Made by a program: the position numbers and the translations under genes. A DNA stretch of 64,000 nucleotides, taken from NCBI GenBank assembly GCA_016196035.1, contig JACPYM010000040.1, positions 1-64,000 of the forward strand, given 5' to 3'. This DNA is from Acidobacteriota bacterium (GTDB lineage Bacteria > Acidobacteriota > Blastocatellia > RBC074). This document shows, piece after piece, positions 51,935 through 54,804 of the stretch (positions are counted from its first letter, which is position 1; the number at the start of each line of letters is the position of its first letter). The notes beneath the pieces are model-generated. The model did no database searches, was not told where the DNA came from, and saw only the letters and a program-made list of their open reading frames with translations.

Positions 51935-52129
51935 ACCGCGTACATCCGAATTATGAAGCTGTGAATTGAGCCGATAGACTAGCGCAACTGGCGCACATGC
52001 GCCAATGCAATGGTCGGCTCAGTTCCCCTCGTAGCACTGCGTCTCACAGCCAGCGGCAAGCCTGGCTCGCGCGCCTGACCCGCAACCAAAACCGTGTATT
52101 TCCATCCAGGAGAAACTTCGGAGGCATCT

Positions 52130-52675
52130 ATGAAATTGTTTGCGCTGCTGATGGTGTTCTCACTGTCACTTTTTACCGTTCCACAAGCGCCCACCGTGGC
52201 GGAAAAGAATGCGCCGTCCAAGATCACGATTGCGACCAAAGAAGAGCCGGGCGAGCGGTTGACCGTGTCTGGCGTGATATTTGGCGCGGACGGCAAAACA
52301 CCGCTAGCGAATGCCTCGGTGTATGTCTATCACACCGATGTCAACGGGCATTACACGCCCGGCCCCAAAGACGACAACCGCAATCCGCGTTTGCGCGGCT
52401 ACATGCGCACCGACGCGCAAGGCCGTTACGAATACAGCACGATCAAACCCGCGCCCTATCCGGGCAATGGCCCACCCGCGCATATTCATTACCACGTCAA
52501 CGCGCCGGGCTATCAGGAGCGCGTCTTCGAGATCGTGTTTGAAGGCGATCCGAAGATCAGCGCCGACATCCGCACCAGGGCCGCGCAGGAAGACAGCGCG
52601 TTTTCCATCCGCCCCTTGGCACGTGAAGCACAAGGCGGCTGGCGTTGCACACAAAACGTCACGCTGCGGAAGTAA
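52130..52675 (+). CDS. intradiol ring-cleavage dioxygenase-like exported protein
   Basis: ATG 52130 follows GGAGG and gives 181 residues with a signal peptide. The fold matches intradiol dioxygenases: [34 protein letters not shown] with a candidate Tyr ligand, [23 protein letters not shown] and [10 protein letters not shown] with the His ligands. This exported short form is common in bacteria of soil but rarely characterised. It heads an operon with the two genes downstream. Confidence 0.87.
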
Positions 52676-52704
52676 GCCAATCAGCAGCAATGAAGGAGCG
52701 TTCA

Positions 52705-53709
52705 ATGCAGTGTATTTATCTACTCCGTAAACCTATCTGCGGGGCCTGCCTCGCGCTGTGGCTGGGTATTTCTTGCGCCGCGCAGGACAGCGGCAACCCT
52801 ATCGCGGATGAAATCGCCCGCTTGAAGCAGGCGTTAAGCGGCTTGGCTGAAAATGACGCCGCCGCGTTTCGGCCAATGCTGGAGCAAGCTGAACAGGACC
52901 TGAAAGCAGGCCGTACCTTCGCCACGCTCTTCCGCTTGCAGCGCGGCACGCCGCAGTTGCTGGCCTTGCAATATGGCGCGACGCACAAAGCTCTCGCCCA
53001 GGGCGGACTGGCGGCCTTTGACGCCGAATGGCAACGCGCGGGCGCGGCGTTGACTGCCGGTGAAAAACGCCTGGCGGCGCGGCCCAATTTGCACGCGAGT
53101 CTGGCCGCGCGCGCCTTGAGCGAAGCCGCGCTCACCAAGATCAAGCCGCTCTATCTAGCCGGGCGGTTATTCTCGCGCGAAGACAGCATCGCCTCGGGCC
53201 TGTATTACCTTGGCCAGGCGCTAGGCAGCCTGGCGTTCGCCCGTTTTAGCGCTGCCTTGCCAGACAGCAAAACACGTCCGGCCTTTACGCCGCGCTCGCT
53301 CGCACCCGCGTTGGCGGAGCTTGAGCAAGACATCCTCGCCGCTTATAGCCAAGCCAATGTCGCCGCCGAGCAAGATCTGTACAACCAGCTCAACGCCACG
53401 CTCAAAACCGCGCAAGAACTGAATCAGGAACGGCGCTACGCCGGCGCGCTGCTTCAGTACCTGGAAGCGCGCCGCGTGTTGGGCGTGCTCAAAGCACTTG
53501 AAACACCGCCGACGCTCGTCGAATTGCAAACCAAGAGCGCGGCTTTCCAAACGCAAATGGCCGCGCGCCAGCGCGATGACAGCCTGGCGCAGATGTATTG
53601 GGAAGTCGCCCAGAGCGCGCTGTCCACGGCCTCGCCCGACAACTTGAAACAAGCCGCCGTACTTTTGCACGAAGTGCTGCCGCGCTATTTCCAACTAATC
53701 CCGGAGTAA
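52705..53709 (+). CDS. exported helical protein of unknown function
   Basis: ATG 52705 follows AAGGAG and gives 334 residues. An N-terminal export signal (ICGACLALWLGISCAAQ) may be a lipoprotein-like or cleaved signal. The rest is almost all alpha-helix rich in Ala, Leu, Gln and Arg with no recognised motif. It lies between the dioxygenase-like gene (29 bases) and the candidate selenoprotein gene (5 bases), so the three proteins may work together in the periplasm. Confidence 0.8.
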   Translation: MQCIYLLRKPICGACLALWLGISCAAQDSGNPIADEIARLKQALSGLAENDAAAFRPMLEQAEQDLKAGRTFATLFRLQRGTPQLLALQYGATHKALAQGGLAAFDAEWQRAGAALTAGEKRLAARPNLHASLAARALSEAALTKIKPLYLAGRLFSREDSIASGLYYLGQALGSLAFARFSAALPDSKTRPAFTPRSLAPALAELEQDILAAYSQANVAAEQDLYNQLNATLKTAQELNQERRYAGALLQYLEARRVLGVLKALETPPTLVELQTKSAAFQTQMAARQRDDSLAQMYWEVAQSALSTASPDNLKQAAVLLHEVLPRYFQLIPE

Positions 53710-53714
53710 CACGA

Positions 53715-54629
53715 ATGAAGCTGCGAACCATCCTGCTGGCGCTGGCCGCCGTGCTGACGTTCAGTCTGGCCGCCCCTGCTCAAACCAACCGCAAAAAACC
53801 CGGCGTCAAAGCAACGCCCAAACCCATCACTGTCACGCTGGTGCGCTGGCCGTACACCTGAAGCCTCTCTGACCCGGCAAGTTTGCTGGTCAAGACCGTC
53901 TTGCAGGATTTCCCCGGTCAGGCGCGCTTCGTGAACGAGAATTGGGGCACGTCAAAACTCGCCGCGCGCTTCGGCATCAAACGCTACCCGGTTGTTTTTG
54001 TGGACGACGTGCTCATTGCCAAGCCCAACGATTTCGGCTGGATGGGCGAGCAAGGCAAATACACGCCCTGGCGCGAACCGGCCAACCACGAAAAGTTCAA
54101 ACAGGATTTGACGCGCATGCTCAAGCTGGCTCTACGTGATCGTGCCGCGCTCAAACGCGCCGGGCAAAATCCGTCTGACGGTTCTACCGAATTGGGCGAA
54201 TTGACGGCGCTGCCTGCTTTCACCGCGCCTAGCCTGGACGGCGGCACAGTGGATTCCACGACGCTCGGCAACCGCGTCGTGATCGTAGAGTTTTGGGCCA
54301 CCTGGTGCGGCCCCTGCCGTTCGACGCTGCAATGGCTGGGCGAGGTCAAACAGCGTTATGGCGATCAGATCAGCGTTGTGGCGATCTCGGTCGAATCGGA
54401 AGAGGCCGAAGTCCGGCAACTCATCGAACAACGAATGGGGCCGCGCAAACTGCCCGTGCAATTCGTGCTGGGCAAGGAAGAGTTGATCAAACCCTTCGGC
54501 ACGATTACGAGCGTGCCGACAATGTACGTCTTCGATCGGCACGGCCAGACGGTATCCATCTTTTATGGCGCGCCCGAAGATTTGCACGCCCAGGTGGGGC
54601 GCTTGTTGGGCACATTGCTGAAGAACTGA
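53715..54629 (+). CDS. candidate selenoprotein: exported double thioredoxin-fold protein
   Basis: ATG 53715 (GGAG upstream) opens a signal peptide (ILLALAAVLTFSLAAPAQ) and the first thioredoxin-like domain (ITVTLVRWPYT). Codon 49 is TGA at 53859-53861, then the same frame runs 255 codons to 54629. The TGA sits exactly where the fold has its catalytic Cys, before SLSDPASLLVKTVLQDFP, and the domain keeps its cis-proline loop KRYPVVFV (Pro92). A TlpA-like second domain follows with FWATWCGPC (Cys198, Cys201). A SECIS-like hairpin follows the TGA, so Sec at residue 49 is likely. The alternative is a nonsense mutation of a Cys codon. Confidence 0.75.
53859..53891 (+). promoter_or_regulatory. UGA codon with bacterial SECIS-like hairpin
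   Basis: After UGA (53859-53861) and a 9-base gap, GACC(C)GGCA (53871-53879) pairs with TGCTGGTC (53884-53891), with one bulged C and one G-U pair. The loop is AGUU, 18 bases after the UGA, with G in its second place. Spacing, stem length and loop G fit the bacterial SECIS consensus. Confidence 0.6.
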
Positions 54630-54634
54630 GTTCG

Positions 54635-54758
54635 CCTGGGTACGCACGCATCCTTGCGTGCAGGCGTGGGCAGAGGCGGAGCAAGGCCCGCAGGTCACCC
54701 TGTTGGCCCTAATCCGTCCTTCGCCACGTCTGCACGCTGGAAGCGGTGCGTACCCAGG
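54635..54758. repeat. imperfect inverted repeat (GGGTACGCACGC arms)
   Basis: CCTGGGTACGCACGCATCC at the left is mirrored by GCGGTGCGTACCCAGG at the right, with the CAGGCGTGGG/CCACGTCTG segments inside. It follows the candidate selenoprotein gene by 6 bases. Confidence 0.8.
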
Positions 54759-54804
54759 CTTCATCCCCGGCTTCATCAAGGTTTCGTGTAAAATCCCCGG
54801 CACT

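Follow-up and report, generated by a model that had tools for sequence, protein, structure and literature searches.

The described proteins closest to the one studied here are the thioredoxin-like or TlpA-like (cd02966) selenoproteins with a UxxC motif (U standing for selenocysteine, Sec), including UGC-containing TlpA and WAxxUGC_long (NF041054); these are oxidoreductases of thioredoxin fold whose Sec takes the redox position within the TlpA-type domain itself. The ResA/TlpA/CcmG thiol-disulfide oxidoreductases carry an AhpC-TSA/Redoxin-type domain with WCxxC and are known with a single such domain and with Cys only. A UxxS motif occurs in selenoproteins of other domain families (the arsenate reductase ArsC, the AhpC/TSA cd02970 peroxiredoxin-like group and rhodanese form 1), none of which is listed with a second, CxxC-bearing thioredoxin domain. 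Finally, the Redoxin family selenoprotein (PF08534) and Prx-like 3 of the GOS study (PMC2398784) have Sec as UxxC inside a PF08534-like domain, and in some cases Prx-like 3 is joined to a CxxC domain of unknown kind.

The gene reported here lies at 53715..54629 (+) of a 64,000-nucleotide stretch of an Acidobacteriota genome (GCA_016196035.1, contig JACPYM010000040.1, positions 1 to 64,000), which as a whole we call the window. The best explanation of this gene is, very probably, that it encodes an exported selenoprotein combining a Sec-containing thioredoxin domain with a CxxC domain. With the cd02966 selenoproteins it shares the thioredoxin-fold oxidoreductase character and Sec at the redox position, and its second domain is related to TlpA/ResA, but here the TlpA-type domain has a plain CxxC and Sec occupies a separate, preceding thioredoxin domain. 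Whereas UGC-containing TlpA has Sec in the WAxx motif, that motif here reads WATWCGPC, and NF041054 scored only 26 bits on the window protein (cut-off 300), on the C-terminal domain. What is held in common with ResA/TlpA/CcmG is this C-terminal domain, to which a Sec-thioredoxin domain and a partner domain (described below) are joined here. The UxxS motif is shared with ArsC, cd02970 and rhodanese form 1, yet the Sec domain gave no match to the Pfam models of these families. As in the Redoxin family selenoprotein we have a redoxin-type thiol protein, but the PF08534 match (residues 165-288) covers the CGPC domain and lies off the Sec domain, which has no PF08534 match; by description, the gene is thus probably distinct from the Redoxin family selenoprotein and from Prx-like 3.

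The reading frame runs from ATG 53715 to the terminal TGA at 54627-54629 and encodes 304 residues, with a Shine-Dalgarno GGAG (53703..53706, +) 8 bases 5' of the ATG, just ahead of the upstream gene's stop codon. Its only internal TGA (53859..53861, +) is codon 49, the predicted Sec codon, in the context WPYT-U-SLSDP. The signal-peptide-like N-terminus, MKLRTILLALAAVLTFSLAAPAQ, is followed by the UxxS thioredoxin domain and then the ResA/TlpA-like CGPC domain. The first-pass annotation had proposed just such a frame, with a single in-frame TGA and coding on both sides of it, and both the sequence and the homologues described below (TGA at this codon in all 23 from the phylum) confirm it. Directly 3' of the gene is a GC-rich segment (54632-54763), resembling a REP or MITE, with copies of GCCTGGGTACGCAC in inverted orientation on either side.

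An AlphaFold run with the family alignment gave a pLDDT of 88 for both domains and 90 for the Sec domain alone (53823..54158, +; pTM 0.82). Numbered within the Sec domain, the predicted layout is strand 2-8, U13, helix 16-27, strand 34-40, YP 55-56 and strand 57-60; in the model this is the layout of a thioredoxin, in which Sec precedes helix 1 at the place of the redox residue and the cis-Pro position is retained. Foldseek on this domain alone reached only a modest best E of 1.6e-3, but structural alignments consistently returned thioredoxins (Z 8-10.5), with SelW-like proteins at about 8.4. The C-terminal domain (54204..54626, +; WCGPC) matched Pfam AhpC-TSA, Redoxin and Thioredoxin_8 over cut-off and ResA-type structures in Foldseek (E about 1e-11), and it has CxxC in every member read, as WCGPC or WCPPC. 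These results support two earlier proposals, that the TGA lies just at the N-terminus of the first helix of a thioredoxin fold with the cis-proline loop kept, and that this UxxS domain is joined to a normal CGPC TlpA-like domain. It had also been said that Sec-UxxS plus CGPC in one exported protein would be unusual; the pair is indeed present, but it is the rule across the whole family and no one-off.

Because of the fold, the position of the motif and the attached CxxC domain, we consider a thiol/selenol redox role for the protein quite likely, on the predicted structure. A competing idea is that Sec binds a metal or metalloid, or carries selenium, and takes no part in thiol redox catalysis, the CxxC domain only keeping it reduced. 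The motif is mostly UxxS, which supplies no resolving Cys, the Sec domain usually contains no other Cys, and a 2026 review mentions possible metal binding by Sec in several selenoproteins (PMC13188914), all of which this idea would accommodate. Against it, the model puts Sec where a thioredoxin fold canonically has its redox residue, with the cis-Pro retained, every member has an attached CxxC oxidoreductase domain, and in two members (L069 and L071, whose SECIS hairpin is the same as in the others) UxxS is replaced by UxxC, in the form U-H-L-C, so that the Ser of UxxS sits at the place of a resolving Cys. We therefore regard a ligand or carrier role as unlikely and favor the redox reading.

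The gene forms one unit with its upstream neighbor (52645..53709, +), a partner gene whose product is likely exported; its mechanical start is TTG 52645, with ATG 52690 or 52705 likelier. The partner product and the first 300-odd residues of fused family members are homologous (E down to 1.7e-44): in 17 of the 24 members, the Cys form included, partner, Sec domain and CxxC domain make a single polypeptide. The remaining seven, the window among them, are split, and in all seven the partner is the adjacent upstream gene, stop and start often overlapping. The partner domain had no Pfam match over cut-off and no recognized fold. Neither this gene, fused in most relatives, nor the UxxC variants had figured in the first-pass annotation. 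Beyond the pair, no neighbor was kept when the window, the locus with the Cys form (L018) and 16 further regions were compared; the other recurring clusters around the locus were frames antisense to the gene itself and a small number of large proteins whose positions varied. Since genes outside the pair are not conserved, they offer no clue to a pathway. Just 5' of the partner gene in the window is one for an Intradiol-dioxygenase-like protein (52094-52672, +; Dioxygenase_C, E 8e-24), probably exported, which is not kept beside the pair in relatives.

Homologues were sought in one genome per species, covering part of each phylum. Of 396 genomes scanned in the phylum, 15 (window included) had the domain, each with exactly one TGA within the matched stretch and with 52-65% Sec-domain identity to the window; a sixteenth match (L034) was weak and partial, stopping short of the Sec column. 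A whole-class scan of 162 genomes added two members (L038 and L039), and of two further class scans one gave none and the other six (L065 and L067-L071). One TlpA-like match with a TGA (L046) was set aside, its TlpA motif reading WATWCGPC and its frame ending normally. Altogether, the window and 22 further genomes, from many families, have TGA at the identical codon (23 of 23), with exactly one in-frame TGA each. The sole homologue found outside the phylum, L018 from an Armatimonadota metagenome assembly, has TGC (Cys) in this column. It was the only relative recovered in a search of genome contigs; a scan of 291 Armatimonadota genomes yielded no second member, and a search of plasmids yielded none. 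A mix of Sec and Cys in this column, put forward earlier as a check, is thus what we see, though the Cys side is thin; given the extent of the searches, the ratio of 23 Sec to one Cys is that of a sample, and more distant Cys forms may fall below the search threshold. In a tree of the 24 rows, only three of the 21 branches were firm and L018 was a very long branch; with so poor a resolution we infer nothing from it about transfer or about whether fusion or fission came first.

This distribution bears on whether the UGA could be an ordinary stop, the gene being broken (a pseudogene) or mis-sequenced and the downstream frame a remnant or separately restarted. Bacterial annotation by default ends a gene at UGA, and there is one early in-frame start-like codon past it, TTG 53883, 24 bases downstream. 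However, the same TGA recurs in 23 genomes with conservation on both sides, and synonymous sites past it are themselves conserved. A protein restarted at the TTG would have no signal peptide and only half its thioredoxin domain; this codon lies inside the hairpin described below, is CTG in five homologues, and has no Shine-Dalgarno before it, which bears out the earlier remark that no ribosome binding site serves an internal restart. We judge an ordinary stop very improbable.

Downstream of the UGA is a SECIS hairpin (53874..53889, +), with its 5' stem at 53874-53880, a GU loop at 53881-53882 (AGUU when counted as a 4-base loop) and its 3' stem at 53883-53889. Its sequence, GACC.GGCA-AGUU-UGCUGGUC, folds at -9.7 kcal/mol (z -2.9), and one of 200 dinucleotide shuffles folded as well; the AGUU loop does start 18 bases past the UGA, as had been claimed. 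Over the 23 sequences, the pattern CC[GA]GCA-[AG]GT[TC]-TGCTG is fixed save for one wobble-tolerant stem site and the loop-closing pair, which covaries (A-U in 18, G-C in 5, no mispairs). The G-C form, GCAGGUCUGC, also makes up the apical portion of the SECIS in E. coli fdhF. Stem pairing reached 97.5% over these sequences, vs. 3-50% for slid versions.

Codon choice points the same way. The hairpin Ala codon is GCA in all 23 Sec members; among the 16 first analysed, this GCA (16 of 16) compares with a 6.8% share among the remaining Ala codons of these genes, and the hairpin Ser and Gly codons AGT (11 of 11) and GGT (5 of 5) with 8.1% and 8.4% usage elsewhere. Of 160 windows along the gene, the hairpin was the top one for synonymous conservation, at an agreement of 0.87, where simulation gave a mean of 0.35 and a maximum of 0.53 in 2000 draws. 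The Cys gene of L018 encodes this site with GCG AGC CTG CTT, lacks the hairpin and loop of the Sec members, and has its best local fold in another register, with a CUGC loop and no early G; the hairpin thus tracks Sec and not protein sequence. The published bacterial SECIS model calls for a G in the first two bases of a 3-9 nt loop with N1 and N2 paired (N1-G-[G/U]-N-N2), a spacing of 16-37 nt, a stem of 4-16 bp and, as a guide, an MFE of -7.5 kcal/mol or below (PMC13188914). Folding the region after the UGA, another check suggested at the outset, gave a hairpin that fits this model: loop AGUU or GGUC, spacing 18, stem 6-7 bp and, for the window, the folding energy given above, the isolated hairpins of two members being weaker than the guide value (L020 at -5.4 and L033 at -6.1).

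The first-pass annotation had made its proposal depend on selA, selB, selD and the Sec tRNA (selC), naming absence of selB and selC as fatal to it; all four were found. In the host genome (9.59 Mb in 139 contigs) the Sec machinery is complete, comprising a tRNA-Sec of anticodon UCA (66.9 bits, with ARAGORN in agreement), SelA (582.2 bits), SelB (363.7 bits, cut-off 242) and SelD (362.1 bits). The SelD gene (L058, G000:C88:97181-98110) has one in-frame TGA of its own, so this selenophosphate synthetase is probably a selenoprotein likewise. SelB was over cut-off in about 254-256 of the 396 sampled genomes of the phylum, making Sec decoding the majority state there. All 15 family-positive genomes of this sample have SelB, a co-occurrence with a chance of ~1 in 700 against that overall rate by our own arithmetic, which ignores relatedness. 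Every genome checked had a tRNA-Sec, at 63-77 bits. The L018 genome (G511) has a strong one itself (75.3 bits), so its Cys form is not explained by a missing tRNA-Sec. That UGA is instead reassigned or generally read through (e.g. as Trp) without Sec machinery has nothing beyond the open frame in its favor and is vanishingly improbable, as the gene's own terminator is TGA, the genome has the complete machinery and the column aligns with Cys in L018 rather than Trp. A pseudogene, a sequencing error, a restart and a reassigned code were thus all rejected, on the TGA shared by 23 genomes, the conservation on both its sides, the TGA terminator and the Sec machinery. Given a conserved sense UGA at 53859, a conserved SECIS hairpin and Sec machinery in these genomes, the UGA would be read as Sec by SelB and tRNA-Sec, and comparative sequence evidence makes Sec incorporation at codon 49 almost certain.

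How such a protein might work can be sketched. Outside the cytoplasm, the Sec selenolate would attack an oxidized substrate (a disulfide, a peroxide or similar), acting as a single-residue UxxS site or occasionally as UxxC; the C-terminal CxxC would then reduce the oxidized selenium and would itself be recharged by a DsbD/CcdA-type membrane thiol carrier. The partner domain, whether part of the polypeptide or the product of the adjacent upstream gene, probably serves to hold the substrate or to dock the protein. Electrons would pass, by analogy with ResA/TlpA proteins, from membrane carrier to CxxC domain to Sec domain to substrate. On the central step, an intramolecular relay between the Sec domain and the CxxC domain, we give even chances for and against.

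The catalogs searched do not list this family. In scans of 17 members, no NCBIfam 20.0 (June 2026) model was over cut-off on the Sec domain (best E 0.027), and no Pfam model recognized it. None of the 119 prokaryotic selenoprotein families and subfamilies in a 2026 inventory combines a separate UxxS thioredoxin domain with a CxxC TlpA-like domain, none of the nine new families of the deep-Sep paper matches, and no paper with the motif WPYTU was found in the open-licence PMC literature. We therefore read 53715-54629 and its relatives as a new selenoprotein family that involves no new principle. The fuller description, an uncatalogued, nearly all-Sec family with a built-in extracytoplasmic selenol-to-thiol relay and a dedicated partner domain of no recognized fold, we hold to be about evenly balanced between right and wrong.

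With this finding, a phylum in which SelB is present in about two thirds of sampled genomes gains a selenoprotein family for which the comparative evidence is strong. Annotation that takes the UGA as a stop would sever the gene, depriving split versions of their signal peptide and half a domain and reducing fused ones to the partner alone. Searches that find selenoproteins by homology depend on Cys homologues being plentiful (PMC12013277). With 23 Sec forms and one Cys form found, the family falls in a blind spot of such searches, and if it is truly near-all-Sec, searches for Cys/TGA pairs would overlook it because Cys homologues are almost absent.
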